From Antedon mediterranea (lineage: Eukaryota > Echinodermata > Crinoidea > Comatulida > Antedonidae), in the NCBI RefSeq assembly GCF_964355755.1, contig NC_092672.1, forward strand, positions 33,352,501-33,416,500: a stretch of 64,000 bases of DNA, written 5' to 3'. This document shows positions 1 to 62,829 of the stretch, in pieces. Position 1 is the first letter of the stretch. Each line of letters opens with the position of its first letter. The notes under the pieces are model-generated. The model was not told where the DNA came from and did no database searches. It saw nothing but the letters and a program-made list of their open reading frames with translations. The position numbers were made by a program, and so were the translations under genes.

Positions 1-2300
1 GGTTCAGGCGTTGTTGGCTCCGGTGTTGGTGTATTTGAAGTATCATTGGTCTGTGACGTAGTGTTTGATATTCCTGTTGTAAGCGGTTCAGGCGTTGTTG
101 GCTCCGGTGTTGGTGTATTTGAAGTATCATTGGTCTGTGACGTAGTGTTTGATAATACTGTTGTAAGCGGTTCAGGCGTTGTTGGCTCCGGTGTTGGTGT
201 ATTTGAAGTATCACTGTTTTGTGACGTAGTGTTTGATAATACTGTTGTAAGCGGTTCAGGCGTTGTTGGCTCCGGTGTTGGTGTATTTGAAGTATCATTG
301 GTCTGTGACGTAGTGTTTGATATTCCTGTTGTAAGCGGTTCAGGCGTTGTTGGCTCCGGTGTTGGTGTATTTGAAGTATCATTGTTTTGTGACGTAGTGT
401 TTGGTATTCCTGTTGTAAGCGGTTCAAAGGTTGTCGGCTCCGGTGTTGTTGTATTTGAAGTATCATTGTTTTGTGACGTAGTGTTTGATATTCCTGTTGT
501 AAACGGTTCAGACGTTGTTGGCTCCGGTGTTGGTGCATTTGAAGTACCATTAGTTTGTGACGTAGTGTTTGATATTTCTGTTGTAAGCGGTTCAGGCGTT
601 GTTGGCTCCGGAGTTGGTGCATTTGAAGTACGATTGGTTTGTGACGTAGTATTTGATATTCCTGTTCTAAATGGTTCTGAAGTTGTTGGCTCCGATGTTG
701 GTGTATTTGAAGTAACATTGTTTTGTGACGTGGTGTATGATATTTTTGTTGTAAGCGGTTCAAAAGTTGTCGGCTCTGGTGTTGTTGTATTTGAAGTACC
801 ATTGGTTTGTGACGTGGTGTATGATATTTCTGTTGTAAGCGGTTCGAAAGTTGTCGGCTCCGGTGTTGATGCATTTGAAATACCATTGTTTTGTGACGTG
901 GTGTATGCTATTTCTGTTGTAAATGGTATAGACGTTGTTAGTTCTGGTGTTTGTGTATTTGAAGTATCACTGTTTTGTGACGTAGTGTTTGATATTCCTG
1001 TTGTAAGCGGTTCAAAGGTTGTCGGCTCCGGTGTTGTTGTATTTGAAGTATCATTGGTCTGTGACGTAGTGTTTGATATTTCTGTTGTAAACGGTTCAGA
1101 CGTTGTTGGCTCCGGTGTTGTTGTATTTGAAGTATCATTGGTCTGTGACGTAGTGTTTGGTATTCCTGTTGTAAGCGGTTCAAAAGTTGTCGGCTCTGGT
1201 GTTGTTGCATTTGAAGTATCATTGTTTTGTGACGTAGTGTTTGATATTTCTGTTGTAAGCGGTTCAGGCATTGTTGGCTCCAGTGTTGTTGTATTTGAAG
1301 TATCACTGGTCTGTGACGTAGTGTTTGGTATTCCTGTTGTAAGCGGTTCAAAAGTTGTCGGCTCTGGTGTTGTTGCATTTGAAGTATCATTGTTTTGTGA
1401 CGTAGTGTTTGATATTTCTGTTGTAAGCGGTTCAAAAGTTGTCGGCTCTGGTGTTGTTGCATTTGAAGTATCATTGTTTTGTGACGTAGTGTTTGATATT
1501 CCTGTTGTAAGCGGTTCAAAAGTTGTCGGCTCTGGTGTTGTTGCATTTGAAGTATCATTGTTTTGTGACTTAGTGTTTGATAATACTGTTGTAAGCGGTT
1601 CAAAGGTTGTCGGCTCCGGTGTTTTTGTATTTGAAGTACCATTAGTTTGTGACGTAGTGTTTGATATTCCTGTTGTAAGCGGTTCAGGCGTTGTTGGCTC
1701 TGGTGTTGTTGTATTTGAAGTACCATTGGTTTGTGACGTAGTGTTTGATATTTCTGTTGTAAACGGTTCAGACGTTGTTGGCTCTGGTGTTGTTGTATTT
1801 GAAGTACCATTGGTTTGTGACGTAGTGTTTGATATTTCTGTTGTAAACGGTTCAGACGTTGTTGGCTCCGGTGTTGTTGTATTTGAAGTACCATTAGTTT
1901 GTGACGTAGTGTTTGATATTCCTGTTGTAAGCGGTTCAGGCGTTGTTGGCTCTGGTGTTGTTGTATTTGAAGTACCATTAGTTTGTGACGTAGTGTTTGA
2001 TATTCCTGTTGTAAGCGGTTCAGGCGTTGTTGGCTCCGGTGTTGGTGCATTTGAAGTACCATTGGTTTGTGACGTGGTATATGATATTTCTGTTGTAAGC
2101 GGTTCAAAAGTTGTCGGCTCTCGTGTTGTTGTATTTGAAGTATCATTGTTTTGTGACGTAGTGTTTGATATTCCTGTTGTAAGCGGTTCAGGCGTTGTTG
2201 GCTCCGGTGTTGGTGTATTTGAAGTACTATTGGTTTGTGACGTAGTGATCGAAACTCTTGTGGTCAATCGTTCAAGCATTGTTGGTTCCGGTGTTGGTGT
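1..2300 (-). repeat. 84-bp coding VNTR, mucin stalk of gene E (about 27 copies)
   Basis: The unit is 84 bp and encodes 28 residues of the type TTGISNTTSQTNDTSN followed by TPTPEPTTPEPL. Each unit carries N-T-T and N-D-T sequons plus many Thr/Pro O-glycosylation candidates. Units differ by single substitutions, and several adjacent units are almost identical. Units near 2300-2464 are more divergent and mark the N-terminal end of the stalk. The plus strand is also open through the array, but only as a mirror of the repeat. Confidence 0.9.
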
Positions 2301-3398
2301 ATTTGTAGTACCATTGTCTTGTAACATAGTGGTTAATGAATCTGTTGTCCACGGTTCAAAAGTTGTTGACTCTGTTATCGTTATAATTGAAGTACCACTG
2401 CTCTGTGACGTAGGATTCGAATCTGTTGTAATTGGTTCATACGTTGTTGCTTTTATGGTTGAATCTGTTGATTTAAGAGCCATTTTTTATTTAAAAGAAG
2501 TAATTATAATAAATACATTGTCTGTCGTATTAACTATTACCAACAATAGTCATGAACATTATTGCTTTTGTGATTAAATTTAACTGATATTTTTTAAATA
2601 TGAAAATATTTAATTTATGGTAAATCGTCTTAATCCTTATAAAAGAAAATATAATAATGAAACAATATTCATTAAGTTATGAAATATCAAATGTAAGCCT
2701 ACTGTTGATTCTCATTACAAATTTATTGTCAAAAGATCAAAAGAAAGACCGATCACAACATGGATCGCAAACATTCATAGAGGAACTCGCCGACTTATAT
2801 AACAACGTACAGAATGGCGAGTGTGAGACGCACAATGTCTAAATACTCGCGTTTAAGGAGAAAATACTGTATAAAATACAGCATAGTGTCTTCTACTGCA
2901 GTTACTGTTGGTTAACTAAATGTTTGCTTACTATTTAACACGTAAATTAAATCATTAGCAGGGTTAATTTCATTGTAATTTTTCTTAAACATCTTTTCAA
3001 AATCAAATTACAATAACTGAAATATACTTCTATTAATTCGTCAAAAATTCGAAACATCGTCTGGTCTGAACCATCAACATACTCATAAAAGAATAATTTC
3101 TTTGTAAACAAAATTGATAGTTTTGATTTTGGAGTTTGAGTTTGGAAAAGAATAAAATATTAATGTTGTTTTCCTGGAATATATTTCCCAATTCAGTGTT
3201 ATTTATTCAACGTTTTTGTTTTTTATATGTATCATATACATTTAATTTAACAATATTTAAAATAAGAAACATTGTTTGTCTCTGAGAGCTTTTAGTTAAA
3301 CCCGGGTTGTTCTACCAAATCATATTACATTAATCTTACTTACCAGACAAAACTGATACAACAATGACAAGTACTGCTTCAAAATGTGATATAGCCAT
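1..3398 (-). CDS. Gene E: 5' part of mucin-stalked receptor (signal and mucin exons), runs off the left edge
   Basis: Two exons on the minus strand are visible. Exon 1 (3398-3344) starts MAISHFEAVLVIVVSVLS, an 18-residue hydrophobic signal peptide, and ends in phase 1 at a GTAAGT donor. Exon 2 begins at 2464 after a ..TCAACAG acceptor, also phase 1, and stays open to base 1. It encodes a Thr/Ser/Pro-rich stalk of 28-residue repeats. The signal-plus-giant-mucin layout, exon phases and orientation match genes A, B and C, so I infer the same adhesion-GPCR family; no HYR, GAIN or 7TM part is visible here. The rest of the gene lies left of the window. Intron 1 (2465-3343) holds no recognisable feature. 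An in-frame ATG at 2484 would give a signal-less start and is less likely. Confidence 0.7.
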
Positions 3399-4045
3399 TG
3401 TCGCCGGATTCGCGTTATATCGCGTAACTCTCCTGCCAGTAGGATGTGTATCTGCTAAATGCGACTGATAATGAATTTCTTTTGTAACACAATAATTACC
3501 ACACTGATAAGTCATGCCGGATCTGGAGTACTATTGGTTACTTGCTTAAACAAATCGCCAATAAACACCTTTGATTGGTTAATGATTACTGCCTAAATAA
3601 GTATTTACACTGAGTAATCTATGTTTACTCCACTTGAGGAACAAGATTGGAATAATTGTTCATTATATTTGTTTTTACAGAAGTTATGCAGGTTACTCTT
3701 TATAATGATACATTTATTACTCAATCACACAAACCATAATGAACATGTTTTCATCAATGAACTCTAATAATTATGAAATCATCATAAATCCGGCTTGCTT
3801 GTTATTGAGTCACAAGGCATTTATTGGTTTTGTAAATGGTTTTTATGTCCGTTTATGACCCTTGTGTGTAATCTAAGTCCCGTGCGAAGCAAAACATTGA
3901 AACTCCAAAAGAAGCCCATCTCTGCAAAGGTAATCACGAAAAGAAGCCCATCTCGAATCATCTTCTTTACAAGCACGAGGTTTGACGATAATTGAAATAC
4001 ACAATAACATATTAAACTTGCATGTTTTATAGTTGTCTAGTGCAC

Positions 4046-5184: not shown

Positions 5185-8100
5185 TTAAACGGATGTGGGC
5201 GTGCTTGTATGGAACCGCTCGACCAAATAGCTATCGTATTGGTCATTATCTTCTTCACTACTTTCAAATGCTGGATTTTCTACCTCAGCTGTAAAGGTAC
5301 CAGTAAAGTGATTTCTCTGAGATGTCATAGTTGGTACTGTTGAATTAGATAATTGTACACTGTTGTTAGGCCTACTGTTGGTAGCCGTTCTATGTAAATA
5401 ATTAACATTGGATAATTGTTGCGGTAAGTACCTATTCGTGTAACGTTTCTTTACATCTTTAAATTCTTGTTGTCTGAACGTAAACAAAACAAATATTGAA
5501 ACTCCCTGGAAAGAATTAAACACACAGAACAAAATTAGAAATACATGGTCAGCTTTGCTATCAAAAGACAGAAATCCAAAAACCCATGTAAAGCCTAAGA
5601 GGAACGATATAGCGATAGAGTTGAAGACTCTTTTTTTAATTTCATCTAGAGTTACATCTTTTGTCGGCAATGTGTTAGATCGCGAGCAGTATAAACTTTT
5701 AAGAACCAATACGAATATAATAGAGTTAAAACAGATGGCAATTGCGATTGGAATAAGAACAGCGTAGATGAAGACGTCGAATTCCTTTGTGTTGAGATAA
5801 CAGCTGTAAGACAATATAAATTAGTTTTTAGTATTTCAGTATTTCAGTATTTATTGGTACTCACTTTAGAATCAGTGGCACACACCTTTCGGTGGTGCGT
5901 CCATACAAATATAAACAACAACATATAAAAGGTAAATGATGATAACACTTACATAATTAACTTACATTGAAACCCCACCCCCCCCCCCAAAAAAAAACAA
6001 AAAAAAAACATAACAAAACAAAAAACAAATGTACAGTAGTAATGTCATAATAATAGTAAAGTACAGTAGTCAAGTTTCCAGTTTAATATGGTCCTGTCCA
6101 ATAGAAAATGTCCAAAATAGTCAAGGACCAATAGACAATGCCCTATAGATATTAACGGTCATTAAAAATCAATAGTTTATTATTATTATTATTAATTTGT
6201 ACTATATAGGTTTATTTTCAATGAAGCATAACGAATATTGGTCATTCAGGCATTCTGGCTGATTAAGTCTCGCGCGTCCTATTTGTATGCAAATGATCAA
6301 GACAAGCACGAACTGCACATGCTCAGAAAATTGTCATGTGTGATATTTTGCAGACGTTGCATACTGTAAACTTGTTTTAAATTTAAAATATATTAATTTA
6401 TTTTATAATAGTATGGATACTTGGAATTCATAATAGTATTTAATTTCATCATTGTTAGTTTTAGTAGGTTGTTAAAACACACATAAATGTTATCGGATAG
6501 AATGCATTAAAAGACACTTACTAGTCATTGTTTTCATAGAAAGACACATCTATTGTTAGTAGAACTACCGGGGGTATGCACGGAATACCTAGAAAAAGTA
6601 GATACATATTTTTAGAGTTTATCCCTGTAAATGTATGGCTTTTTGATAACAATGGTAGATAAAACGAATTATATAACACGGTACGCCAATGTAAACCGTG
6701 TCATATTAATGTGTGAGTGCATTCAGTACATAATCAATCATGCATATCAAGGTGTATTCTTTCGTGACGTCATTGAGGATATTTTGTGTATTCATTAAAA
6801 CATAAAATATTAGATTAGGATTGATTTATCATAAAAAGTCGGTAACATTACAAAACATCACTGCCAACATCTATAAACAAATATCGTACTTACCCCAAGC
6901 GAAAATCATTGAAAACCACAAAAACTTGGCGGTCTTAACGTTGAAAACTTTAACAAATAACAAATACATATTGACTGCTTCCATGGATGTCCATGCGACA
7001 GACGTCAACAGAAAGTAATGTAACAATACAGCTATTGTTGTACAAGCTACAGTTTCTGGAGTTGCAGTATCAATGCCACATATGAATGTGATATACAGAC
7101 AAGTTAGTGAGATGGAAAGGTTTAACAGTATTTTCTGAGGTTGACGTTTGCGAAGAGTTCTGTTGAAAAAGTTATGTATTTGGTGTTATTGGACACGTAG
7201 TGTATAAACTATAGTGTTAGGTCATTCGTATAGTCACCCAGACATGTTTAAACTACGTGAATTGGGTGCGCTCATCAGCATTCATGATTCAATTGCCTAA
7301 TTTTTCCTGGATGAATAGCACACTATAACTTTGTCCAGGCAATTTAGTAAACGTTTTACTTCAGTAATTAATTATGCCTGAGCAAATTAGCTTTAAAAAG
7401 GACTGTAGCTTACTTTATTGATAGACTGACAACGATTGTCATTAGTAGGCACAATATTGACATCACACATCCTACATACGTCACTATGTTCAAAAACACT
7501 TCAAACGTGTACGCCAATTTATTATCAAACTGAAAACATTTTAAAGAAATGAAATTACTCGAACGTTTTTTAATTGTTGATACCGATTTTTAATTTAACT
7601 TAAATGAAAAAAGAAACGTGAAACTTACAAATAAAATTGCAAAATTTGTAAGATGTGTACAGTTACATATAATACTGCCATCGTTGTCGTCCATACCAAT
7701 AAGCGTGCATCCCTCTTCTGACCAATCACCAAAGTCGTTAAGAGTTGTATTCCAAAACACACAGGTAGCATTTTGATTTGCATAAGCCTGCTCAAAATAA
7801 AACATATGCAAATACTTGGTGGTGGTTAGCTTGATTCCCAATTAGACGCAACCCAATAGCGTAAGCGCGTATGAGTAATTTGACAAACTTATGGATCATC
7901 CAAACTGACCCTTGTGATTGGTCAAGCTAACCAAGCTTGAGAGAATGTGTGCGGGTTAACCTAAAACGCATCTCAAAAATAAAAAAACATAAACACTGTA
8001 CCTTAGGAATATTGAAGACAATTTTAACAGGTTCTTCAAACACGGGTGGAAGGCTGTCGTCATACACAGTTGCTGATAGAATAACATCGGATAGGTTGAG

Positions 8101-11100
8101 ATTTCCAGAACTAGATGACTGGAACAATTTTGAATTGTAATATGATGTAAAACTCACGTTTGACAACAGTGTATCTGTTTAAAATAATAAATGTGTATCA
8201 TGGTACAACAACATATACTGTACTGTAGTAATTTTTGCATACAGTAGCATTAACACTAGTACTTTCGCGTAATTGAAACTGTATTTAATGAGTGTGTATA
8301 ATTATGTAGAGGTAGGCCTACTATACAATTGTCTAAATTCAACCAGATCACGTGGTATTTTGATAGACTGGTGATAGAAGCTACAACGTTAATTAACACA
8401 AACTTCAGTTTTTCTTTGATCTTCTTCCCCATGAATAAAATATCATGTCTAAGCTTATCAAAGTAAAAACTCAGTAAGTAACTTAAAATTATCCTGTACG
8501 TACTGTGTGTTAGCAGATCACGTGGTAAAGTTATGGATTGGTAATCTCCACATCTTCCATCAACGCACACTTCAGTTTCTTTCTTATCTTGTTTCGCAGT
8601 GAATACCACATCATGTCTAAGATTATCAGAGTCAAAACTTAAAGTCTGCACAGACAGCGTTTCTTCATTTTGAGTGTAATTCTGACCATCAGTGGCTGCG
8701 GTACTAATTTGTTGCTCCAAAGACTCAAGGATGGCAGAGGTTGTCTCAAGAGGGAGATCAGTGTCTGATGAATCAGATGAGAGCACTGCATCTACAGTAT
8801 CGACTACAGCATCCGTGACCTGGAATCACAGCCATATCACAGTATGATGTGCCCAAAAGGCTTTTGATATACTTCTTAATCTAACTAATTTCAAATGGCA
8901 TATTTTCCATGCGGTTAATAGGACAATATCAAGCATGATGTGTTCTGAGGATCAATTTTATGTTTTTTAACTTACAATTTCGTTTGTTGATTCAATATCA
9001 GTTATTTTTCCCAAAGCTACGGATACTTCTTGTATATCAGCAGGCTGAAGGTCACCAGCGTCTGCTGTTTTCTCTACTATTTCCTCAAGCTCAACTGCAA
9101 CCTCTTCTACATTATCTTCACTGACACCACTCTATTGACAATAATAATCAAGTTCAAAAAACATTTATTTATTCAACAATGGCATTATACAGTATAATAT
9201 AATTATAGGTGTGTACATAAATGAAAACATACTAAAAAGCCATCATTTGGGGTCTTCTCTAGAAGAAAACAAGTTTCTTGTCTCGAGAAAGACCCCAGAA
9301 ACAATACACATACATTTAAACTAATACAATTTATTACATAAAATAATAAAAAAAAACAAAAACGATGAAATAAAAATAGATACTTTCAGTGTACTACAAT
9401 CATAATAATATTAAAATTAGTATAAAGAAATAAGATATTTTTAAACATTTTTACGAAAAGTATAAAGAGATTTAAAATGCTTTAGTTTATCATCAAGATC
9501 ATTCCAGATTCGCGGTCCTGAAACAGAAACAAAATATTCGTAAATTCTCAGTCTAAAAGGAGGTACATCAAGATGCTGAAATTTATTGTCGATACGTAAA
9601 TAGTACTTGTGTGATTTTGTATGATGACTTAATAGATTAGACATTGTCAAAGGAAGCAATTTGTGTTGTAAATAGATCATGTAGACTAAGAATATTGAGT
9701 TTTTTAAGTAAAGGTTGGGAAGGGGCGAGATAGTGAGAGAAAGTAATAATACGGGCAGCACGTTTAATTTGTTTATTAAGTTTTTCTAAATTTGATGGGT
9801 AGTCGGCTGCCCAAATAATGTTGCAATAAAGAAGATGAGGTTGTATAAGGGTGTTATATAACAAGAGTAAGATATGTTGTGGAAAAAAGTGTCTTAATTT
9901 ACAAAGGATGCCAATTACTTTAGATATCTTTTTAGATACATACGCTTGATGACTGGTCCATCTCAAGTATTCATGTAGATAAACTCCGAGGAATAGTACT
10001 TCGGGTTTACGTTCAATAATATTATTGTTAATGTAAATATTAAGATTAGAGAAATCAATTTGTCTTTGTTGAGTACGAAATAAAATGTAATTAGTTTTCT
10101 GTACATTAACAATAAGCTTATTTGAGATGAACCAGTCAGTCATTTTATTTAGTTCAGTGTTAACGGTGTTATATAAGACATTGATATCAGAATGAGAAAA
10201 CAAAATCGTAGTATCATCAGCAAAGGATATGACTTTCAGAGTGTCACTTGATCTAGAAAGATCATTTACATAAATTAAAAAATAGTACTGGTCCTAAAAC
10301 CGACCCTTGAGGCACTCCGCAATTTACAGCCTCCACTGATGATTTAAATGAGCCTAACGCAACATACTGTTTACGGTTTACTAAATAACTTTCAAACCAG
10401 TTTAATGCAATTCCTCTAATGCCATAATTAAATAATTTACCAAGAAGAATTTTATGATTAATGACATCAAAAGCTTTTGACAAGTCTATAAAAAAATAGT
10501 TGTTAAAAGAAACGCACGTTTTTGAGTTTCTAGATTATTGTTTACAAACGTAACTAAATATGAGGAGACGATAATCAAAAACTTACCTGTGTCAGGTTTT
10601 TTATTTGTGTAGATAGACCAGTTTCTATAATATCAACAATTTCAGAATATAAATAATTGCGATTGTTATAATAATATTTAGGAAATCAGCTGGTTCAACT
10701 TCAAGTGTTGGGCAACGAAAATAATAACACAAGTAGCTTAATTTTAAACTGTGCAGGGTTGTAGAATCGAAAGACTTACCTATAGTTATATAAAATGAAC
10801 AAGTATCCGTCTGTCTGACAACATCAGTTGTGGTGCATATAACTTTTGTGATCGATCCAGTTTGATAAGATTCTCCCGGTTTACTGGTACAATAAACCGA
10901 TGGTGGCGGTGTTTCATCATCGTTTGCTATTGGTATTATCCAATCAGGAGATGGGTCCGTCGATGATATGTCACTGGGGCATTCGATTGTTGGTGGGATG
11001 TTATCTATTTTTAATAAACATACTCAGTATTTATTCCAAGAATAACGTGAGCACACTCTCTCATCATAAATAAAAACGTTATTTTAAATTTTATTATTTC

Positions 11101-14320: not shown

Positions 14321-14374
14321 CAAAAAGAAATTGAACGGTTTATCTGATAAGAGAACTGAGAACTGTTAGCATAG

Positions 14375-14610: not shown

Positions 14611-14740
14611 TTTTTGTGGATTTTTACTTTTATGTTAAACCAAGACAACGAAAAGGAATAATATTACCTTCGTGACGTTTCGCCGACAATCTGTCAGCTG
14701 CTTCAGACTAATGCCTGGGTTGGAATGGTCTGGTTTTTTG
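14610..14740 (+). repeat. Left inverted terminal copy of Penelope element
   Basis: The reverse complement matches 16986-17118 over its full length by eye. It contains CTGAAGCA, a GCTGAC/GTCGGC hairpin and GAAACGTC on the minus strand, a hammerhead-like arrangement found in Penelope terminal repeats. The A expected at hammerhead position 9 is replaced by C. Confidence 0.75.
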
Positions 14741-16980: not shown

Positions 16981-16985
16981 ATGCT

Positions 16986-41490: not shown

Positions 41491-41491
41491 A

Positions 41492-50400: not shown

Positions 50401-53400
50401 AAAAGTACCATGCATGGAAGCGTTATACTGCTACAAAGCACTACAAAGATTATGAGAAATATACAAAATTAAGAAATGCAGCTTCAAAGGAGTCAAAGAA
50501 AGCTAAACGGATCTTTGAGAAAAAACTTGCAAAAGAAGTTAAGACTAACCCAAAATGCTTTTGGAATTATGTAAGGTCTAAAACAAGGATAAAGTGTGGA
50601 ATTAGCCACCTGACTAAACCTGATGGGTCTAAAACAAAAAATGATGAAGAAAAAGCTTTTATCTTGAATAATTTCTTTTGTAGCACGTTTACATGTGAAG
50701 ACATATCCGATGTACCAGAACTTACAAATAGATATAATGGTGTACCATTGAGCACATTAGTATTTTCAAGAGAGCAAGTCCTAAAGAAGCTGATGAGTCT
50801 AAACCCTTCAAAATCTCCGGGCCCAGACAGCATACATCCTCGTGTACTAAAAGAAGCAGCAGAACTAATCGCTGATCCACTAACAAACATATTTAATAAA
50901 TCCATAAAGGAAGGTATCATTCCTGACGACTGGAAGGTAGCTCATGTTTCCGCTATATTTAAGAAGGGCAACCCTACTAATCCAAGCAACTATAGGCCCA
51001 TCAGTTTGACATCAGTGATATGTAAAGTAATGGAATCCTTAATCAGAGATGATCTAATGATGTTTCTGGAAGGCAATGATCTTATAAGTAACCATCAATA
51101 TGGATTTAGAGCAGGCAGATCATGTGTAACACAACTGATAATGGTACTTGATAAATGGACAGCTATGATTGATGAAGAAGGTGGTGTAGACGTAGCATAC
51201 CTGGATTTTAGCAAGGCCTTCGATACTGTCCCACACCAACGACTACTGAAAAAAATACAAGCATATGGAATTAATGGTAATCTTTTAAAATGGATAGAAT
51301 GTTTCTTACTTGGAAGGAAGCAGCGTGTTGCAATTAAAGGAACCTTATCGTCTTGGTCTCATGTTACAAGCGGGATACCCCAAGGAAGTGTCCTCGGACC
51401 TATACTATTCTTGATCTACATAAACGATTTACCCGATATATTAGAAAGCCACACAGAGATGTTTGCTGATGATACCAAACTGTTCAATCATATTAAGAGT
51501 CGGGCTGACTGTGAAGCCCTCCAACGTGATATTGATGCTGCTAACGATTGGGCAAAAACTTGGCAGTTGCAGTTTAACGTCAATAAGTGCTGCATTATGC
51601 ATCTTGGCAGGAACCTTGAATTGTACAATTATACGATGTCAGCGGAGGCTTTGCAGGCAAAAGAGGAAGAAAAAGACTTGGGCGTTATATTTGACCAGAC
51701 CCTCAAGTTCAGCAAACACGTTGGAATCGTCAGTAATAGAGCCAATAGAGTTGTTGGTCTGATCAGACATACATTTAACTACCTTGATGAGGAAATGTTT
51801 GTTCCACTTTTTAAATCTTTAGTGAGACCTCACCTTGAATATGCTAACTGTGTATGGTCTCCGTTTCTTCGTAAAGATATAACATGCATTGAAAAAGTTC
51901 AAAGGAGGGAAACAAAAGCAATTCCATCATTAAAAGACCTGGATTATACAGAACGCCTAAAACGACTAAATCTACCAACATTGGCCTTTAGAAGATTACG
52001 AGGAGATATGATTCAAGTTTTTAAAATGGTGACAGGCCTAAGTGGTAGTGGAATGCGTAACTTCTTCCCTATGAAAACATACGAGAGAAACCTAAGAAGA
52101 CATCGATACACCATATATAAGCGACGACCTAAACTGGGTATCCGCAAGTACAATTTTTCTTACAGAATTGTTAACCTATGGAATAGTCTACCAGAGGAAG
52201 CCGTTAACACCACCACAGTAAACGCCTTTAAAAATAAACTTGATAAATTCATTGAAAGAAAATACAACAAATTTACTTTTATGGGATAAAGTGTATTGTA
52301 GAAGAATTTAAATCAAGGAAACCAATGAAAAAAAAAAAAAAACCAAAAAAAAAACCATGCAGTGATGACTTGATGAAAGTGGGAGGGCATGACATGTACC
52401 ATACAGAAATGTATGGTCTACTTACGAGCCCGACAAGACAGGTGATTACAGGTGATTACAGGTGATTAAGTTCGTTCGACCTGGAACATCTGAAAACAAC
52501 TGCAGATTTCCAAATATCAAACTAACAATTTCAACCTTACGATCACGAGATAAATGACCAACTTTCTCTTCAATGTTTGCAAGAACATCTGAATTACTGA
52601 ACTTAACACATGTATCAGGATCCCCAAACTCTTCAGAATTCTCTTCAACAACACACGCAACTGGTGTTGACGTACAGGTATCACTATTATTTCTCACTGT
52701 GTATGGTTTCAACATGTTTATATGACACAGTCGCTTCTTCTTACGCCTATCTGGAGTATCTAACACATAGTCAACTTCTCCTACTCTTTCTAATACTTTG
52801 TAAGGACCAGCAAATCTTGTAGATAATGGTTGACTGGGAAGAGGCAACATAACTAACACTTCATCACTTGAATTAAAGCTTCTCTTTTCTGATTTCCTAT
52901 CAAACAATCTCTTCATTTTACCCTGAGCCTTCACAAGATTCTTTCTAGCCATCTCACGAGCACGATTTAATCGATCACGAAATTCAGACACATAATCTAG
53001 TATCGATACAGACTCTTCTGCATTCCCTAACAGCCTTTCTTTGACTATTTTAAGAGGGCCTCGGACCGAATGACCATACACCAACACAAATGGGCTAAAC
53101 CCTAAGGACTCTTGCACTGTTTCACGAACAGCGAATAACAATAAGGGAACTCCCTCATCCCATTCCTTTTCAAATTGAAAACAATAGGTTTTAATCATAT
53201 TCTTAAGTGTTTGATGAAATCTCTCAAGTGCCCCTTGAGACTGTGGATGGTAAGCACTTGAATTTATATGGGCAACACCTAACTGCTCTAAGACTTGTTT
53301 AAATATCTTTGACATGAAGTTTGATCCTTGATCGGACGGAACAGCTTTAGGCAATCCTACCCATGTAAAGAATTTTACCAATGCTTTAACAACATTCTTA

Positions 53401-56400
53401 GCTGTAATACGCCTAAGAGGAATCGCTTCTGGAAACCTACTTGATGCACACATTATTGTTAATAGATACTCATTTCCATTTTTAGTACGTGGTAATGGAC
53501 CCACACAATCAACAATAACCCTTGAAAATGGTTCACCGAATGCAGGAATAGGCTTAAGTGGGGCTACTGGAACCTTTTGATTAGGCTTCCCCACTACCTG
53601 ACACGCATGACAGGATTTACAATAGTTAGACACATCTTTTCTAAGACCTGGCCAAAAGAAATGCCTGAGAATTTTGTCTACCGTTTTATTGACACCTAAA
53701 TGACCTGAAAGAGGATCATCATGCGCAATACAAATAATATCCTGACGGTATCCACTAGGAATAACTATCTGGTGAATCACATTCCAAACCTCACTACTTG
53801 GAATATCTGGTGGCCTCCACTTACGCATAAGTATGCCATCCTTTATATAATAACAAACAGGAACAATAGACATTTCCTCTACAGAAAGAGCTTTCTGACC
53901 AAATGACACCAAATCAGGATCATTACTCTGCTCTTCCACTAACCTAGACCGATTGAGAACTGTCGGACCGAAATCACACACTTTTGGGTGCTGTTGTTCA
54001 GCCTGGGCAGTGTGTGACTCGGGACCTGAGCAGACAGCCTCTTGGGAAACGCGATCCGTAATGTCTCCGTAAAAACTATCACATAAGTCAATACTCTCAT
54101 CCTCATCTATGGTTTTATTTGCCATAGATCGCGTCACCGCACATGATGGAAACACATGTGATAATTCTTTCTCTAAACACACCGTGCTTTCGTCTTCAAC
54201 AGGACTCTTTCACACAACCGGTTCTCCTGTCACTCTGTCTCCGGCCAAATCATTCCCCAAAAGGAGTGCGACACCCCACACCGACAACAAAATCTCCGCT
54301 AACAATATCTGTTTCAATCCGAATTACATGAAGTGGGACTTCCTTATAACCCCCTTCAACACCTTGGATGAGCACACTTGCTCCAGCAGAAGACTCGTTT
54401 GAAAATGACAATGCCGATTCTATTATCAGGGATTGTGACGCCCCTGTGTCTCTTAAGACACGAACTTTACTCAGATTCACATCGTTGATCAATGCTACAG
54501 AACCAGTAGAGAGGAAAGGCTTAAATAGCTTTCGCACTTATATCCCCAACAATTACAAGAATCATAAATCACTCCTTCACAACATGTAAATTCCCAAATA
54601 CGTGGAAAATAGCAAAGGTCACGCCAATTTTTAAGAATGGTGAAAAAATTAACCCTAATAATTATCGTCCCATTTCCGTCCTACCTATACTTTCAAAAAT
54701 AATTTAACGAGTCGTTTTTAATCAACTTTATGCTTTTTTGAATAATAATAATCTGTTATGTATAAATCAATCAGGTTTTTGACCATCATACTCAACATCT
54801 ACTGCACTTACAAAAGTGACGGAAGACTGGTATAGTGCAATAGACGAGGGTAAGCTGGTCGGAATCTGTTTACTAGATTTTAAAAAGGCCTTTGATACGG
54901 TAAACCATAACATACTATTAAGCAAATTGAGACTTTATGGTTTAAGTAAATATGTTTTAAAATGGTTCGAGAGCTATCTGTCTGAGCGAAAGCAATTCAC
55001 AAATGTAAATAATACATTGTCTGACTATACACACATCCAATGTGGAGTGCCTCAGGGGTCAATCGTGGGCCCACTTGCTTTCCTCTTATATATAAATGAC
55101 CTATCGAAAGTTGCAAACAAATGTAAAATAAGTATGTATGCTGACGATACTATAATTTATTGTTCTTCAAAAAATGGAAATGAAATATACCAAAGTATAA
55201 ATGAAGAACTTATACAAATCTACGATTGGTTAAAAAATAATAAATTGAGTCTAAATGTCTCTAAATCCGAGTTCATGTTGATCGGATCGACAAACCGATT
55301 GGCAACCACCAAAGAAAAAAATAGATCAGTTAATATAGATAACGATGTTGACGCGTTCGATATTGCCAACATCTCGGTATCATAATAGACGAACATTTAT
55401 CATGGAAAAATCAGATTGAATACATTCGAGGTAAAGCTCTAAATGGATTGGGTATGCTTAGACGATGTAGCTATTATTTTCCACAAAACATATTAAAACA
55501 TATTGCAAACTCTATTGTAATACCTTACTTGAGCTATTGTAACATAATTTGGGGAAATAGTAGTCAAACTCTAATGAAAAGAGTTCAAACTATCCAAAAC
55601 AGAACAGCTCGAATCGTGTGTGGTCTAACATGGGACACACCTAGTAGTGAGGCACTAAGGCAAATTAATTGGTCACCTTTATTTTATCAAGATAGATATG
55701 AGACTGTTAAGGAAGGTTGAAGCTTATGGTATCTCCGGTAACGTCTATAATTGGATTCAAGACTTCTTAAAAGGTAGAAGACAACGAGTAATGTTAAATG
55801 GGACTCTGTCGAAATGGTCGGATGTGATAAGTGGTGTTCCGCAAGGAAGTGTGCTTGGTCCGATTTTATTCTTACTCTTTATCAATGACTTGCCTGAAGT
55901 TGCAGTATCAGAAGTTAAGCTTTTCGCTGATGATACTAAAGTTTATGATTATGGGGAACCCAAAGAAAAATTGCAGATCTCACTTGATAATATGTTTAAT
56001 TGGTCGACCAGATGGCAACTACCTTTCAATGCCAACAAGTGCAAGATGTTGTATATAGGGAAAACAAATGAGAAGAATGAGTATTTTGTAAATGTACAAG
56101 ATAAAGTTAAAATTGAAGAGACTGCTATAGAAAGGATCTCGGAGTATACTTTGATCATAAATTGAACTGTGATTATCATATAAATTGCTGTGTTGCTAAG
56201 GCAAATAAAATAGTGGGTCTCATCAAAAGGACTTTTTGTTACAACGATAAGGATATGTTTCTTAGTCTATACAAATCTTTAGTCCGCCCTATCTTGGAAT
56301 TTAACTGTTGTGTCTGGGCACCTCATCAAATTGGACTGATTAAGAAAATCGAGTCGGTTCAGCGAAGAGCTACCAAATCATTGTCAGAAATAAAACATTT

Positions 56401-59400
56401 GGCATATCCGTATAGATTGAAGTTTTTGGGTTTACCTACACTGGAGTACAGACGATTAAGAGCGGATATGATCCAAATCTTCAGAATTATAAATGGTCTT
56501 GACGCTATTGAATGCAGAAAGTTTTTTACATTTGTTGATTGTCATGGAACTAGAGGTCATGAATACAAGCTATATAAAAACAAGTTTAGGCTTAATTCCA
56601 GGAAGTTTTCCTTCAGTTGTAGAGTTGTGGACTCATGGAATAACTTACCATCTAATGTTGTAAAAGCTCCAAATTTAAATCTGTTCAAGTCACTCCTCAA
56701 TGGTCATTGGAAGTCCCTTGACTGCAAGTTTACCTTTTCATATTTATAATCACTTTGGAACATTATGTGTACACCCGGAGCCCGGAGTCATACGAAGACA
56801 GGAAGGGTCATATAAGCTATATTTAGCTTTCTAACCGACCCATAACATCAAGCAAGTATCAAGCAAGTATATGAATGTTGTATGGTTATATATAAGGTTT
56901 TGACAGATAATGCCCCACCTTACCTAAATAATGTATTTACATTCAATGATATAAATTATAATCTAAGGCACAGTGATACACATCTATTCATCTCAAAGCC
57001 AAAAACCGATTTTAAAAAACGAAGTCTGTCTTATCGTGGAGCAATTATATGGAATAGTCTCAATGTTGATACCCTTCCAAATTCAGTTAAGTTGTTTAAA
57101 ACGTATCTGAAAAATGCATTGTAAACATAATGGTATGGTAATCTACGATCTACATCCAACTTTTAAAATGGCTAAATACTATGTAAAATGTGTGTTTTAT
57201 CACTATTATTTTAAGGTAAATGAAATCCAAAAGATTTATTATGTATTACAGTTGAATCCCCATGAATTATACACTTCGATAAGGGTTTCCGTTTACACGG
57301 GAAGTACCGGTATGGTGTACCCTAAATAGAGGTGTCAGATGAAGGGGATTCTGCTGTAATTTTGTTTCTTTTCAATTTCAATTTTTTTCGTTTCTGTTGT
57401 ATTTATAAGGTGTTGATTTTTGTTTGTTTTGTAATACAGTATCACGAACTTGTGTAAAAACAATCAATATTGATTGAACGAGTTGTACTGCACATCAGTC
57501 TCGTGTCTAAATAAAGTTTATATATATTCCGGACCTGAAGATTGGATCAACTTCACTTTCATCAACGTCATGACTCGCTGTCACTTTCAACGGGACTGTA
57601 TTTACCAACGTGTTTGGAAGTGATTGGGGTTTCTTATTATCCCCTTTAGATTTGCTTTGAAACAGCCAGCAATCTGCCTTTATATGACCCTTTTTCTTGC
57701 AGTGAAAACAAGTTCTGACAAATTTACTACTACGTACTATTAACTGTAGTTTTCTGACTTTGGACCTTAGAATCATCAACAGATTTGGAAACCGATTTGG
57801 TATTTACCACCTTGTGCGTGACCACATAATTATCGGCAACAGAAGCCGCTTTCATTAAATTATCAACTTTCTGCTCCTCTAGATGTGTACGAACTTCAGT
57901 AGGGGAACAAGATTTAAACTCCTCAACTAACATAAACTCACGAAGCTTTCCAAATTCACCCTTTACTCCTTCCGAACTACACCATCTATCAAAAAGAATC
58001 TGCTTCTTACGTGCAAATTCTGTAAACGTTTGATCATAAGGTTTACTTAAGTTCCAAAATTTCTGACGATACGCCTCTGGAACTAACTCATAAGCTGACA
58101 AAACAGCAGTTTTGACCGCTTCATAGCTTTCACATTGATCATCAGCCAATGCAGAAAATACCTCTTGGGCTTTACCCTTAGGTTTACTTAAGTTCCAAAA
58201 TTTCTGACGATACGCCTCTGGAACTAACTCATAAGCTGACAAAACAGCAGTTTTGACCGCTTCATAGCTTTCACATTGATCATCAGCCAATGCAGAAAAT
58301 ACCTCTTGGGCTTTACCCACAAGAGCAGTTTGTAACAACACAGTCCAGTGTCTAGCAGGCCACTTTAATCTATTAGCAATTTTCTCAAAAGCTAAAAAAT
58401 ATGTCTCTACCTCGTCCTCATTAAACTTGGGAACTCATTGAATATTCTGAGTAATCTCTGAATCATTAGGTGTAGAAACCCGTGTGGTGTGACCCATTTG
58501 GTTAGCTAATTCTAATTTCCTTAACTCAAATTCATGTTTTTCTTTTTCCATTTCTCTTTGAGTTTGCATCTCTAGAATCTCTATTTTTCTTCTTTCAAAA
58601 ATTAATTTTTCACGTTCCAATGCGATTCTAGCCAACTCTACCTCATTTCCCGCAGTATTTACGGATTCATGAGTAATTAAACGAACATGACTTCCAATCA
58701 CATTTATCAAGTCATATTTATAATATTCATGGAATCATTTATAGATGCTCCAACCCTAGTACCTAGGAGTCGCAAACGTTCCTCTGATAGCTGAGCTACC
58801 ACCTCAATGGACATGCTAGTATCCAAAAATTCCTCGTCAAAATCACTTTCTGACATAGTTTCTATTTGAAACAAACAAACAAAAATACAGGTTAAAATAA
58901 TAACCAATATGACGATAATTAAGGCACCAGTAATGAAATACCTGCCAAGCCCACACAGTATTAAACCTACCGTGCGCCGTGGTCTCAATAACTAGACCCC
59001 TAAAATCAAAGCCAAACCGACTTCTACTATCACAGGCAAGCCTACACAAGCCTAAAACAACAACACAGTGTACTACTACTGGCTCGACGACCGCCAAACC
59101 TCGTTCGCTATAAAACGCCTCTAAACCTAAAACCAGCTTAGAATAAGCAACAAAAATTACCATCAGTTCGATCTACAACTACAATTCCGTACTTTGTTTC
59201 ACGGATGACCCCCCAATTTGTTACGGGCTCGCTCTTTAGGCAGAAACCAACAATAAGAACATAACAAAACACGTTGTAGTTGTCGTCCATCTTTATTCAT
59301 CTCTTCCCTTTTACTCTAGAGGGCTCACTTCCGTGTGACAAACCCATCACAGTATGTATGTTTGTATGTTTGTTACTTGGCAAAAAAGAATTTTGACATG

Positions 59401-62400: not shown

Positions 62401-62829
62401 TTGGACGTTGTTGAAGGCTTATGTCATGTCTGTGGTCCACATAAAGATCATTTTAAAAGCGATAACATAAGTTAAGACACACACAATTACCATTTGTTAA
62501 AGCTGTTACTGTTGCATGGAATCCTCTATATGTCTTACTAGAGTCCGTGTAGAAACGTATCCACAGTGTCGAGTTTTCGGAAATTATAGAATGAATGGTG
62601 GATGAACCTGTGAAAGTATACTCATAACTGTTTTCTTCAAACCCAACATACAGATAATCCCATCTATACTCTAGTTGAAAGTCGTTGAACTGAAGGAGAA
62701 TGACAAACTCTGATGAGGTGGACACTGTCCATTCGCAATTTAAATTGTTGTAGTAATTATTCGGATAATTTGGAGACGAAAATGAATATAAAACATTCGC
62801 ATCCTCAAGATATATATTGGTTATGCATT
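41492..62829 (-). CDS. Gene D: HYR-less adhesion GPCR, probably with an N-terminal CUB; 5' end outside window
   Basis: Minus-strand exons: 62829-62491 (CUB, assignment inferred), 48593-48348 (short mucin), 47876-47839, 47407-47261, 44821-44503, 44359-44187 (GAIN), 43768-43613 (GPS), 43461-43346 (TM1), 43086-42821 (TM2-TM4), 42304-42238 (ECL2), 42020-41492 (TM5-TM7 and tail). All phases join. No HYR exon lies between the mucin and GAIN exons. GPS C-N-C-T-H-L-T is intact. The tail stops early after QNPAFETSDEN; the last 15-20 residues of A and C, with the C-terminal motif, are missing. The CUB exon is 13.9 kb upstream across transposons. It is linked by strand, phase 1-1 and the lack of any other host exon between. 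A signal exon is not visible. If CUB belongs to another gene, D begins at or before 48593. Confidence 0.75.
42430..42740. repeat. Minisatellite, about 20/40-bp unit, in a gene D intron
   Basis: Degenerate repeats of AACGCGAAAAGGACAAATG and AACGCGCACGGAAAGGACAA alternate to give a 40-bp period. All six frames are rich in artificial ORFs. Located between the ECL2 and TM2-TM4 exons. Confidence 0.85.
44983..45090 (+). repeat. Interspersed repeat, copy 1 (ACGCGACTCTACAGCTCACTC)
   Basis: Shares GCGACTCTACAGCTCACTCT, a GGTCGGT run and GCGACTGCAGCCAT with 45989-46118, same orientation, 1 kb apart. The two may be long terminal or flanking repeats of one unit that encloses the hairpin at 45245-45397. 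No coding potential. Confidence 0.5.
45245..45397. repeat. Imperfect 153-bp palindrome (foldback element)
   Basis: Two arms of about 68 bp are near reverse complements around a short GAGGAAACGCCGA centre. The best-paired part is GGTGAATGATGAAAGGTTA against TTAACCTTTCATCATTCACC (the latter on the plus strand). Probably a MITE or foldback element. Confidence 0.65.
45590..45690. other. AGGCCT-rich cluster
   Basis: In an otherwise AT-rich intron, the palindromes CTAGGCCTAG and AGGCCT recur at least four times within 70 bp. No gene is seen; it may be dispersed repeat debris. Confidence 0.4.
45989..46118 (+). repeat. Interspersed repeat, copy 2
   Basis: Direct copy of 44983-45090 with an expanded GGTTGGTCGGTCGG tract. 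It ends CATCTATATGGCCTTGTT, against CATGTATATGACCTTGTT in copy 1. Confidence 0.5.
46297..47235. repeat. 28-bp satellite array (about 33 copies) in a gene D intron
   Basis: Unit GGTTTGAACAAGTTATG followed by CTATTTGCTAT (28 bp), head to tail with single-base variants (TTTGCTAT, TTTCCTAT, TTTTCTAT). It ends within about 25 bp of the donor side of the GAIN exon 47261-47407. No spacers separate the copies, so it is not a CRISPR. The ORFs here are repeat artefacts. Confidence 0.93.
47509..47663. mobile_element. MITE-like element, second complete copy
   Basis: Left end GCTCTGTCTACACTATC, right end GTGTAGACAGAGC, with CATATTTGGGCA repeats inside. Matches 4046-4195. Lies in the gene D intron between exons 47407 and 47839. 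Confidence 0.7.
48390..48575 (-). repeat. 45-bp coding repeat, gene D mucin (4 units)
   Basis: Four 15-residue units EPSAPVTPSAEPTTF make up most of the 82-codon exon 48593-48348. The exon is phase 1-1, with a ACATACGACAG acceptor and an AAAAG|GTTTAT donor. The unit differs from those in A, B, C and E, yet the Thr/Pro/Glu bias is the same. Confidence 0.8.
48679..49152 (+). CDS. LINE ORF1-like protein (157 aa, probably 5'-truncated)
   Basis: Contains NLIIHNVPES, VIRLGKRER, PRLLKVTVDS and IYVTPDLTQKEREKN, the pattern of a LINE ORF1 RNA-binding domain. The protein starts in the middle of the expected domain, so upstream ORF1 sequence is missing or in another frame. Nucleic-acid chaperone role by family analogy. 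Confidence 0.6.
   Translation: MCNLIIHNVPESHHEDSKDRRKEDTVYIDDVFNACQATGSTLSSVIRLGKREREGNKPRLLKVTVDSVATKRNILGGTKNLRDGKSDKWSNIYVTPDLTQKEREKNKLLRETLSFRRNEEGNESLAIRRGKIVDLSKERVNLNAKEGSIKGNQPFPR
49349..50296 (+). CDS. LINE apurinic-type endonuclease domain
   Basis: Carries YTNVDGLINKKAEL, ILAITEVF (catalytic Glu), VGCIYRSPNS, LLITGDFNY, SLLDLIIVND and GKSDHVIL (SDH motif): the N- to C-terminal order of the APE domain in LINE ORF2. It nicks target DNA to prime reverse transcription. The frame is lost in the T-run near 50270-50280, where the RT frame takes over. Confidence 0.8.
   Translation: MEDHNSSNDTSGSSDDTEDILRANKKDLNSKKKLYCVYTNVDGLINKKAELESYLSSKTDAPDILAITEVFPKRRSSDIDTTVLQLNGYDMFITDQLGRGVCIYTNKVLKATSVNFDTQVNNFNESVWCEIRLENEENILVGCIYRSPNSSKENNDALLELISTACRRKYPYLLITGDFNYREIDWTSWISRASENHGSSKLVDCLQDNFLYQVSNRNTRYRDGNRPSLLDLIIVNDELLIDEVSEYSPLGKSDHVILEFYLNCYCKIDDYQPSRFKFCNGNYHNLRNDLKEVNWTEMNDKDVNTAWSFFYRCNT
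50298..52289 (+). CDS. LINE reverse transcriptase
   Basis: Has NPSKSPGPDSIHPRVLKE, NYRPISLTSVICKVMES, YLDFSKAFDTVPHQRLL, SGIPQGSVLGPILF, MFADDTKLF (catalytic ADD), and the C-terminal VQRRETKAIPSL and LWNSLPEEAVN. All RT motifs are present without internal stops from 50370 to 52289. In the intact element it would be fused to the upstream endonuclease. Confidence 0.85.
   Translation, partial: ATSANIPKTKPKDGIKKKRKSAVWMNTEALAKIKKKYHAWKRYTATKHYKDYEKYTKLRNAASKESKKAKRIFEKKLAKEVKTNPKCFWNYVRSKTRIKCGISHLTKPDGSKTKNDEEKAFILNNFFCSTFTCEDISDVPELTNRYNGVPLSTLVFSREQVLKKLMSLNPSKSPGPDSIHPRVLKEAAELIADPLTNIFNKSIKEGIIPDDWKVAHVSAIFKKGNPTNPSNYRPISLTSVICKVMESLIRDDLMMFLEGNDLISNHQYGFRAGRSCVTQLIMVLDKWTAMIDEEGGVDVAYLDFSKAFDTVPHQRLLKKIQAYGINGNLLKWIECFLLGRKQRVAIKGTLSSWSHVTSGIPQGSVLGPILFLIYINDLPDILESHTEMFADDTKLFNHIKSRADCEALQRDIDAANDWAKTWQLQFNVNKCCIMHLGRNLELYNYTMSAEALQAKEEEKDLGVIFDQTLKFSKHVGIVSNRANRVVGLIRHTFNYLDEEMFVPLFKSLVRPHLEYANCVWSPFLRKDITCIEKVQRRETKAIPSLKDLDYTERLKRLNLPTLAFRRLRGDMIQVFKMVTGLSGSGMRNFFPMKTYERNLRRHRYTIYKRRPKLGIRKYNFSYRIVNLWNSLPEEAVNTTTVNAFKNKLDKFIERKYNKFTFMG
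52446..54182 (-). CDS. Gypsy integrase with N-terminal zinc finger, start of RT
   Basis: Open for 578 codons. It has an H2C2 finger (SGHLGV, CKSCHACQ at about residues 158-195) and a core with DCVGPLP, SDQGSNF and GALERFHQT, giving a D-D-35-E spacing between the second Asp and the Glu. A C-terminal chromo/GPY-like region follows (AGPYKVLERVGEVDYVL). The last 60 residues (HLSRDRKVEI, LFSDVPGRTNL) are the beginning of a gypsy RT. It inserts the cDNA into the genome. The frame upstream is broken by a shift near 54260 and a stop. Confidence 0.82.
   Translation of the reverse strand: MCLEKELSHVFPSCAVTRSMANKTIDEDESIDLCDSFYGDITDRVSQEAVCSGPESHTAQAEQQHPKVCDFGPTVLNRSRLVEEQSNDPDLVSFGQKALSVEEMSIVPVCYYIKDGILMRKWRPPDIPSSEVWNVIHQIVIPSGYRQDIICIAHDDPLSGHLGVNKTVDKILRHFFWPGLRKDVSNYCKSCHACQVVGKPNQKVPVAPLKPIPAFGEPFSRVIVDCVGPLPRTKNGNEYLLTIMCASSRFPEAIPLRRITAKNVVKALVKFFTWVGLPKAVPSDQGSNFMSKIFKQVLEQLGVAHINSSAYHPQSQGALERFHQTLKNMIKTYCFQFEKEWDEGVPLLLFAVRETVQESLGFSPFVLVYGHSVRGPLKIVKERLLGNAEESVSILDYVSEFRDRLNRAREMARKNLVKAQGKMKRLFDRKSEKRSFNSSDEVLVMLPLPSQPLSTRFAGPYKVLERVGEVDYVLDTPDRRKKKRLCHINMLKPYTVRNNSDTCTSTPVACVVEENSEEFGDPDTCVKFSNSDVLANIEEKVGHLSRDRKVEIVSLIFGNLQLFSDVPGRTNLITCNHL
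54250..54537 (-). CDS. Gypsy aspartic protease fragment
   Basis: VRVLRDTGASQSLI contains the D-T-G-A-S catalytic motif of retropepsins; one Asp per subunit, dimer expected. A downstream frameshift at about 54264 puts the LGNDLAG part in another frame. Its 5' junction with gag was cut by the LINE insertion. Confidence 0.72.
   Translation of the reverse strand: MRKLFKPFLSTGSVALINDVNLSKVRVLRDTGASQSLIIESALSFSNESSAGASVLIQGVEGGYKEVPLHVIRIETDIVSGDFVVGVGCRTPFGE
54523..57537 (+). mobile_element. LINE inserted in the gypsy element, itself interrupted
   Basis: The RT starts as NTWKIAKVTPIFKNGEK and NYRPISVLPILSKII. It has stops near 54704 and 54781, then continues open (FKKAFDTVNHNIL, CGVPQGSIVGP, MYADDTIIY) to about 55385 and after a shift to 55697. 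The RT C-terminus (VLTDNAPPYLNNVF, IIWNSLNVD) resumes at 56878. The 3' UTR ends with AATAAA near 57512. It is 5'-truncated and degenerate. The gene order proves it landed in an existing gypsy copy. Confidence 0.8.
55697..56875 (+). mobile_element. Second LINE nested in the first (5'-truncated, CR1/L2-like)
   Basis: Begins mid-RT at LLRKVEAYGISGNVYNW, then SGVPQGSVLGPILF and LFADDTKVYDYG to about 56165. After a one-frame shift it continues through VQRRATKSLSEIKHL to CRVVDSWNNLPSNV (56746). Its RT is related to that of the LINE at 50298-52289. The 3' end carries a doubled ATCAAGCAAGT near 56855. Third level of nesting. Confidence 0.78.
57507..58856 (-). pseudogene. Gypsy gag, SCAN-like capsid and CCHC knuckle, broken
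   Basis: Start MSESDFDEEFLDTSMS at 58856. A Glu/Lys-rich coiled-coil-like stretch (EREKLIFERRKIEI) follows, then a capsid with FWNLSKPYDQTFTEF and LREFMLVEEFKSCSP that resembles a SCAN domain, and a zinc knuckle CFHCKKKGHIKADC. Breaks: frameshift near 58708, in-frame TGA at 58435-58437, frameshift near 57750, and an in-frame 141-bp tandem duplication (58040-58180 and 58181-58321) of 47 codons. It cannot make a normal capsid. Confidence 0.72.
58040..58321 (-). repeat. 141-bp in-frame tandem duplication in gag
   Basis: The 47-codon segment beginning GKAQEVFSALADDQ is repeated head to tail with essentially no difference, so the duplication is recent or an assembly artefact. It would duplicate part of the capsid N-terminal half. 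Confidence 0.85.
59198..59216 (-). other. Putative primer-binding site of gypsy element
   Basis: Just inside the LTR, the minus strand reads TTGGGGGGTCATCCGTGA. This is close to the TGGGGGCTCGTCCGGGA used with proline tRNA by many LTR elements. The position 2-3 bp after the LTR end fits. Confidence 0.5.
59219..59351 (-). repeat. Putative 5' LTR of gypsy element (about 133 bp)
   Basis: On the minus strand it begins TGTGATGGGTTTG and ends GAGCCCGTAACA (TG..CA). It contains AATAAA followed by GATGGACG. It is short for an LTR. No partner LTR was found in the window because the 3' part of the element is lost, so the outer border is uncertain. Confidence 0.5.
59345..59734. repeat. GTAT/GTTT microsatellite and palindromic minisatellite
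   Basis: Tracts of GTAT, GTTT and GT alternate with a palindrome ACTTGGCCAA..TTGGCCAAGT (28 bp in all). Full copies lie at about 59511, 59568 and 59644, and two decayed ones near 59372 and 59462. Each palindrome is followed by TATGTTGATCTGTTTGGTT. Further copies occur at about 60340, 60395, 63348 and 63401. Confidence 0.85.
59735..60325 (+). mobile_element. Helitron-like non-autonomous unit, copy 1
   Basis: Starts TCATCACTCTAGCGCTCAC and ends with a GC hairpin CGCGC-TAT-GCGCG, 4 bp, then CTAG followed by T. A TC 5' end, a 3' hairpin and a CTRR end are Helitron features. The 5' neighbour is G rather than A, so the assignment is tentative. No Rep/helicase coding region. Confidence 0.5.
60462..61061 (+). 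mobile_element. Helitron-like unit, copy 2
   Basis: Same ends as copy 1, with an internal deletion of the AAGCTAAATGAAATTC segment and a different 3' half. Preceded by two palindromic minisatellite units (60330-60460). Confidence 0.5.
61078..61703 (+). mobile_element. Helitron-like unit, copy 3
   Basis: Ends as in copy 1. Its first half shares the AAGCTAAATGAAATTC insertion with copy 1, so copies 1 and 3 are closer to each other than to copy 2. Separated from copy 2 only by GTTT repeats. Confidence 0.5.
61724..61925 (+). mobile_element. Helitron-like unit, copy 4 (3'-truncated)
   Basis: Begins TCATCACTCTAGCGATC and follows the copy 2 version to about 61920, then leaves homology. The following 61930-62490 is AT-rich and shows no gene or repeat that I recognise. 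Confidence 0.45.
62491..62829 (-). CDS. CUB-domain exon (113 codons), probable N-terminal module of gene D
   Basis: Encodes a CUB fold: SPNYPNNYYNNLNCEW, then FNDFQLEYRWDYLYV, FTGSSTIHS, STLWIRFYTDSS and GFHATV. Only the first Cys pair (ECIT and LNCEW) is present; the second pair of classical CUBs is missing. AG acceptor at 62831-62830 and GTAATT donor; phase 1-1, like the mucin and HYR exons. CUB domains are extracellular binding modules and occur in some adhesion GPCRs. No signal peptide is found between 62830 and 64000. Confidence 0.8.

Follow-up and report, generated by a model that had tools for sequence, protein, structure and literature searches.

A tandem array of adhesion GPCR genes

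The window analyzed here, a 64,000-nucleotide stretch (C3:33352501-33416500) of the 354-Mb, 18-contig assembly of Antedon mediterranea, carries genes that, by the sequence features tested, are adhesion GPCRs. Exons were mapped by homology across the window and its flanks (30 kb to the left, 70 kb to the right), and matching C4 and C8 loci and two outgroup loci were also compared. The same minus-strand exon order recurs from copy to copy, with acceptors and donors common to the aligned copies: signal, mucin, HYR, a 13-amino-acid (aa) microexon, pre-GAIN, GAINa, GAINb, GPS, TM1, TM2-4, TM4b, and TM5-7 plus tail, whose successive junctions lie in phases 1, 1, 1, 0, 0, 1, 0, 0, 2, 1, and 2. The chain of gene D starts with signal, CUB, and mucin exons, both junctions in phase 1, and lacks an HYR match; mucin, HYR, and CUB exons are all phase 1-1. 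Splice sites were picked for agreement among copies, not blind, and at some exons a rival AG scored equally. Signal exons were sought as an ATG followed by a hydrophobic stretch and a phase-1 donor, with thresholds set after the exons of A, C, and D had been seen; for each of A, C, D, E, and G a single candidate came out, and for Z, whose signal exon is uncertain, there were two. Pfam searches of exon ORFs within the window matched 7tm_2, GPS, and CUB, and an Rfam search of the window gave no match.

Window positions are used below, and all features lie on the minus strand unless stated. The exon map places the HYR, GAIN, GPS, and 7TM exons of gene E to the left of the window; the 5′ part of its mucin exon fills positions 1 to 2464 (the whole exon, 4854 bp, extends to C3:33350111), and its probable signal-peptide exon, MAISHFEAVLVIVVSVLS, the sole scan candidate at E, lies at 3344 to 3398. 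Gene A comprises 7TM exons at 5185 to 7529 (TM1, 7529-7414; TM2-4, 7159-6894; TM4b, 6588-6522; TM5-7 and tail, 5803-5185), GAINb and GPS exons at 7629 to 8174 (GAINb, 8174-8002; GPS, 7790-7629), GAIN exons at 8504 to 10624 (microexon, 10624-10587; pre-GAIN, 9131-8976; GAINa, 8819-8504), an HYR exon at 10780 to 11004 placed by the exon map, copy alignment, and Pfam, a mucin exon at 11225 to 13117, and a signal-peptide exon at 13908 to 13968 found by the scan. The exon map also registers a partial GAINa-exon duplicate (8341-8427) within an intron of this gene. Between A and B, at 14703 to 16983, lies what appears by eye to be a Penelope-like element (a reverse transcriptase, then a GIY-YIG-like stretch).

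Locus B (17991 to 23652) has a signal exon, mucin, HYR, and pre-GAIN exons, and broken GAIN, GPS, and TM exons, and its lesions mark it as a pseudogene. They comprise a 41-bp deletion in GAINb, a 4-bp insertion in GPS, a 5-bp deletion from the mucin exon, which also has in-frame stops at 22740 and 22044, two 6-bp deletions and loss of the acceptor AG in TM2-4, and the absence of the GAINa exon save for a remnant. Gene C has 7TM exons at 24898 to 26949 (TM1, 26949-26834; TM2-4, 26524-26259; TM4b, 25738-25672; TM5-7 and tail, 25501-24898), GAINb and GPS exons at 27054 to 27625 (GAINb, 27625-27453; GPS, 27215-27054), GAIN exons at 27797 to 28701 (microexon, 28701-28664; pre-GAIN, 28564-28409; GAINa, 28115-27797), an HYR exon at 30997 to 31221, a mucin exon at 31435 to 38523, and a signal-peptide exon from the scan at 38905 to 38971. 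A plus-strand ORF of 2,249 codons (31845-38594), antisense to the C mucin, was set aside as a gene and is likely a compositional by-product.

Gene D has 7TM exons at 41492 to 43461 (TM1, 43461-43346; TM2-4, 43086-42821; TM4b, 42304-42238; TM5-7 and tail, 42020-41492), GAINb and GPS exons at 43613 to 44359 (GAINb, 44359-44187; GPS, 43771-43613), GAIN exons at 44503 to 47876 (microexon, 47876-47839; pre-GAIN, 47407-47261; GAINa, 44821-44503), a mucin exon at 48348 to 48593, and a CUB exon matched by Pfam at 62491 to 62829; its signal exon, from the scan, lies just outside the window (C3:33417674-33417608). A 28-bp satellite of 33.6 copies (46294-47234) sits within an intron of gene D, and LINE-type and Gypsy-type ORFs, recognized by eye (49127-58434), occupy much of its 14-kb CUB-mucin intron. 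The first-pass annotation had described a tandem array of at least four, probably five, genes, A to E. Genes A, C, D, and E stand and B drops out as a pseudogene. The annotation's same-strand GAIN, GPS, and 7TM exons in identical phases were recovered for A, C, and D by Pfam and the exon map, with usable splice sites, as were the signal and mucin layout of gene E and the CUB exon of D.

Extent of the array and its relatives in the genome

Exon homology bears out the array and shows it to be larger than first described: it overshoots both window ends, with gene Z to the left of E and genes F and G to the right of D. Exon models joined at phase-matched GT/AG sites leave Z, E, A, C, D, F, and G, all seven of the C3 genes tested, open from the microexon to the stop codon (553 to 637 aa), giving seven open GAIN-GPS-7TM cores. 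The spliced core of the C4 copy is open as well; in this model a small deletion makes one exon end run 6 bp too far. In addition, the exon map contains a diverged opposite-strand gene left of the window (C3:33.326-33.335 Mb) and two further relatives on C8; C4 carries a D-type gene with a truncated C-type locus after it. In a 52-row tree of the TM2-4 exon, from which 26 of the 66 non-array TM2-4 matches were left out, the array (B included) and the C4 and C8 copies formed a single clade of 11 rows (support 96/92).

Genome-wide, 139 GPS matches were obtained among 150 scored sequences, drawn from 180 candidates. The many other GPS loci indicate that GPS-gene expansion is general in this genome. 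At C7:2285068-2320980, 11 almost identical GPS matches, 10 of them scoring 48.6 bits and one 47.8, follow one another every ∼3 to 6 kb on one strand; they probably form a tandem array, very recent in origin, of a different GPS family. Other GPS clusters lie at C9:18.6-19.0 Mb and at C1:6.5-7.3 and 39.0-39.7 Mb, the C1 clusters with many HYR matches; for HYR, 150 of 1,415 first-look candidates genome-wide were scored.

A conserved GAIN-GPS-7TM core

The spliced core of gene C matched 7tm_2, the Pfam model for a class B2-type 7TM, at 140.5 bits (profile positions 4 to 250) and GPS at 50.8 bits, and single exons of A and D also matched 7tm_2. When gene C was compared with solved structures (phmmer), the best match was ADGRG6 (GPR126; E = 3.7e-45), over query positions 30 to 546 and spanning GAIN and 7TM jointly; this is a sequence match, and no orthology is claimed. 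Because the sole match to a GAIN-related Pfam model, in gene C, reached 15.6 of the 21.7 bits of the cut-off, the GAIN assignment relies on the ADGRG6 alignment. The GPS cleavage motif CTHLT (HL/T) is present in all seven spliced C3 cores. It is accompanied by a putative tethered-agonist sequence, TNFA[VI]LF in six of the seven and TNLAVLF in G (C3:33458.5 kb); we take the TNFAVLF-type sequence after the cleavage site to be the tethered agonist. Given the conservation of both sequences, self-cleavage with agonist release would be the default mechanism.

Mean pairwise aa identity was 87% for TM2-4, 86% for GAINb, 82% for GAINa, 80% for TM5-7, 79% for pre-GAIN and for GPS, 77% for TM4b, 76% for HYR (4 genes), 71% for TM1, and 40% for the tail; identities of single pairs ranged from 61 to 99% per exon, tail excluded. 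The 7TM half had initially been called constant, which describes TM2-4 well and does not extend to the cytoplasmic tail, the least uniform part, most of which is missing in F. Near the C terminus, the tails of E, A, C, D, and G carry NPAFE, which resembles an NPxF sorting motif; Z has NPAI, and the motif is absent in F.

Silent divergence was lowest in TM2-4 (0.23). For Z, TM5-7 was more diverged at silent sites than TM2-4 against all six paralogues (Fisher P of 0.0066 or less), a contrast that suggests gene conversion, and the uneven per-exon dS also favors it. In a run test on 123 silent columns no pair survived correction (best, E-D, P = 0.006), and in a per-exon heterogeneity test F-G, the best of 21 pairs (P = 0.005), was not significant once corrected. 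When all 547 polymorphic columns were used, E-C, E-G, and D-F reached P = 0.001, a result that constraint could produce likewise. TM2-4 has possibly been homogenized between copies by gene conversion.

Mucin stalks differ in length, with near-neutral variation among units

The mucin exons encode 2,363 aa in C, 1,618 in E, 631 in A, and 82 in D, a ∼29-fold range. The first-pass description of the stalk as hypervariable holds between paralogues, the sole level of comparison. The unit counts that it gave were also recovered: 4.3 units of 45 bp in D, 10.2 in B, 21.1 in A, ∼82 in C, and 29.2 in E within the window (55.9 in the whole exon). Units are 28 aa long in E, B, C, and Z, 27 to 28 in A, and 15 in D and F. 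Thr and Ser together make up 41 to 47% of the long stalks of A, C, and E (631 to 2,363 aa; Thr alone is 40% in A) and 39% of the 82 aa of D. The mucin segments are probably glycosylated. At the 2.5 Å per residue given for ADGRG4 in the text of PMC10687090 cited here, the stalks would span ∼0.59 μm in C, 0.40 μm in E, 0.16 μm in A, and 0.02 μm in D.

The C unit matched 76 times genome-wide (E ≤ 0.001), always within A, B, C, or a C4 locus. In relatives at C3:0.38 Mb and on C9, no long Ser/Thr/Pro-rich repeat ORF was found in the 17 to 18 kb covered upstream; the former has two short Ser/Thr/Pro-rich ORFs there (78 and 81 aa), and the latter an 18-bp repeat. In one of the C8 relatives there is a Ser/Thr/Pro-rich ORF of 136 aa with 33-bp units.

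These arrays raise the possibility, which we consider real and on balance doubtful, that stalk length is largely neutral: any sufficiently long glycosylated linker would work, and the 84-bp arrays would drift as minisatellites with their frame kept. Gene E has an exact self-repeat of 1,091 bp (offset, 13 units) and gene C one of 723 bp (offset, 31 units); they indicate recent block duplication of mucin units, as drift would have it. Anchor motifs (78 in C, 44 in E, and 22 in A) served to locate the units, and with those off the modal length excluded (3/77, 7/43, and 6/21, respectively), pN/pS against each gene's own consensus was near neutral at 0.78 in C (74 units), 0.82 in E (36 units), and 1.31 in A (15 units). 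The mucin exons are free of stops over 2,363, 1,618, and 631 codons in C, E, and A, so frame and composition have been kept and sequence hardly at all. A purely neutral stalk sits poorly with two observations: the CUB/SRCR genes D and F have 15-aa units and short linkers, whereas the HYR genes have units of 27 to 28 aa, and N-sequons are distributed very unequally (155 in C, 114 in E, 1 in A, and 0 in D). Near-neutral unit variation of this kind is as compatible with a drifting stalk length as with function.

Two classes of ectodomain

As judged from exon content, the genes fall into two ectodomain classes, signal-mucin-HYR (E, A, and C) versus CUB/SRCR-associated with short mucin linkers (D, F, and G). 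Gene Z, with its uncertain signal exon, has the layout of the first class. HYR exons matched PF02494 at E ≤ 1 in all six cases scanned (B excluded), the best at 1.8e-8, with gene C at 15.2 bits, under the cut-off of 21.7; a structural model of the gene C HYR exon (mean pLDDT 83) had no PDB match at E of 0.001 or less. No HYR match appeared in D, F, or G in the exon map. Upstream of the F linker lie one SRCR domain (103 bits) and four CUB domains, and upstream of the G linker three CUB domains; the CUB domains of D, F, and G scored 25 to 68 bits in Pfam. Their order and strand suggest that splicing adds all of these heads to F and G. Such domains ahead of the linkers of D, F, and G are in keeping with a surface receptor that engages a binding partner. 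Genes A, C, and E showed no globular head ahead of the mucin, the signal-to-mucin introns of A and C having been inspected by eye; the signal exon lies 790 bp from the mucin exon in A and 381 bp in C. The exons scanned with Pfam gave no pentraxin or HRM match, nor was an EGF module matched among 20 sequences, a search that small exons could escape.

The first-pass annotation took a constant signaling core with a variable stalk to be the layout of a diversifying recognition receptor (for microbes, self/nonself, or gametes). In such a family, variable ectodomains on a common engine would be chosen for ligand diversity. The conserved core and the very unequal stalks and modules are there, and the heads of D, F, and G, the tandem array with its dead copy B, and the truncated C-type copy on C4 are what such a family would present. 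Diversifying selection, however, was not seen: pooled pairwise dN/dS was 0.24 to 0.37 in folded exons (HYR, 0.26 in 4 genes; GAIN and GPS exons, 0.26 to 0.37 in 7 genes) and 0.62 in the tail among the seven C3 genes, with B, the C4 and C8 copies, and the CUB/SRCR heads left out. With the long-stalked A, C, and E yielding no head and the comparison covering paralogues of one assembly only, we consider a recognition role in this sense rather unlikely.

Probable joining of mucin and 7TM exons

The weak mucin 3′ donors (GTTTG, GTTGG, and GTTTA) would favor separate, secreted mucin-like genes whose mucin exons remain unspliced to the 7TM exons, as would C4:22.107-22.110 Mb, where signal, mucin, and GAIN exons occur and the stretch covered downstream yielded neither a GPS nor a 7TM exon. 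The donors are nonetheless phase-consistent (phase 1) in the five loci A to E and share an A-rich context, AC(T/A)AAAN/GTT, in A, C, D, and E, B being alike; the same exon order recurs from A to C, D, and E; and the C4 mucin is itself spread over two frames. Separate mucin genes are accordingly most improbable. False tandem duplication or misjoined repeats in the assembly, which highly similar copies and long near-identical arrays might suggest, is hardly credible, as the copies differ in introns, inserted elements, and residues at the single-pair identities given above, and the mapped stretches contain no N.

Probable tethered-agonist receptors on variable stalks

In our main reading, to which we assign a probability of about 0.6, the array forms a tandem clade of adhesion GPCRs that cleave themselves and carry a tethered agonist, the glycosylated stalks serving as spacers or levers. 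Clade and family membership rest on sequence, and we infer cleavage, glycosylation, and function. The GAIN domain, encoded by five exons and bearing the HL/T motif, would cut itself, and the glycosylated mucin segment would hold the N-terminal fragment at a distance of 20 nm to ∼0.6 μm from the membrane. Binding or drag, on glycans in the long class and on CUB/SRCR heads in the short class, would then pull the fragment away and free the agonist. Ectodomain modules would be swapped as phase 1-1 exons, and stalk length would shift through block duplication of ∼84-bp units.

The spacer or lever role is suggested by analogy with ADGRG4 (GPR112), an adhesion GPCR whose mucin-like stalk spans ∼2,000 residues (279 to 2244); the cited text proposes a shear or distance sensor, with the stalk as spacer or force lever (PMC10687090). 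ADGRG4 is a single gene with a pentraxin-like head and an HRM domain, whereas the array consists of tandem genes with stalks of 82 to 2,363 aa and HYR or CUB/SRCR modules. The ADGRE/EGF-TM7 receptors (EMR2, EMR3, and CD97) are likewise adhesion GPCRs and related; EMR2 is reported to have undergone concerted evolution with CD97 and EMR3 through gene conversion (cited in PMC2720389). Unlike them, the array genes gave no EGF match in the exons scanned and have tandem-repeat stalks of up to 2,363 aa. SRCR ectodomains in adhesion GPCRs of amphioxus and sponge and CUB ectodomains in those of amphioxus (PMC2246102, PMC4302439) are shared with the array (SRCR in F; CUB in D, F, and G); the sections of these papers cited here do not name HYR, nor do those of the amphioxus paper name mucin. 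No paper found in the open-access literature searched describes a tandem array that combines graded repeat stalks with two classes of ectodomain, a weak sign of novelty. A known receptor family seems to have been elaborated locally here.

A more specific version of the tethered-agonist reading is speculative, and we hold it to be improbable as a whole: one array would couple two input modules to a nearly interchangeable self-cleaving engine, headless mucin antennae of 0.16 to 0.6 μm versus short-linked CUB/SRCR heads, with antenna length, an unstable coding minisatellite polymorphic between individuals, setting the activation height or force threshold. The paralogues differ ∼29-fold in mucin length, and also in sequon density and heads, on core exons that average 71 to 87% identity. 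With such unequal stalks on alike cores, the question of what stalk length does would be directly testable in chimeras. Moreover, since the stalk is a coding minisatellite, individual variation in a signaling receptor would be testable by resequencing.
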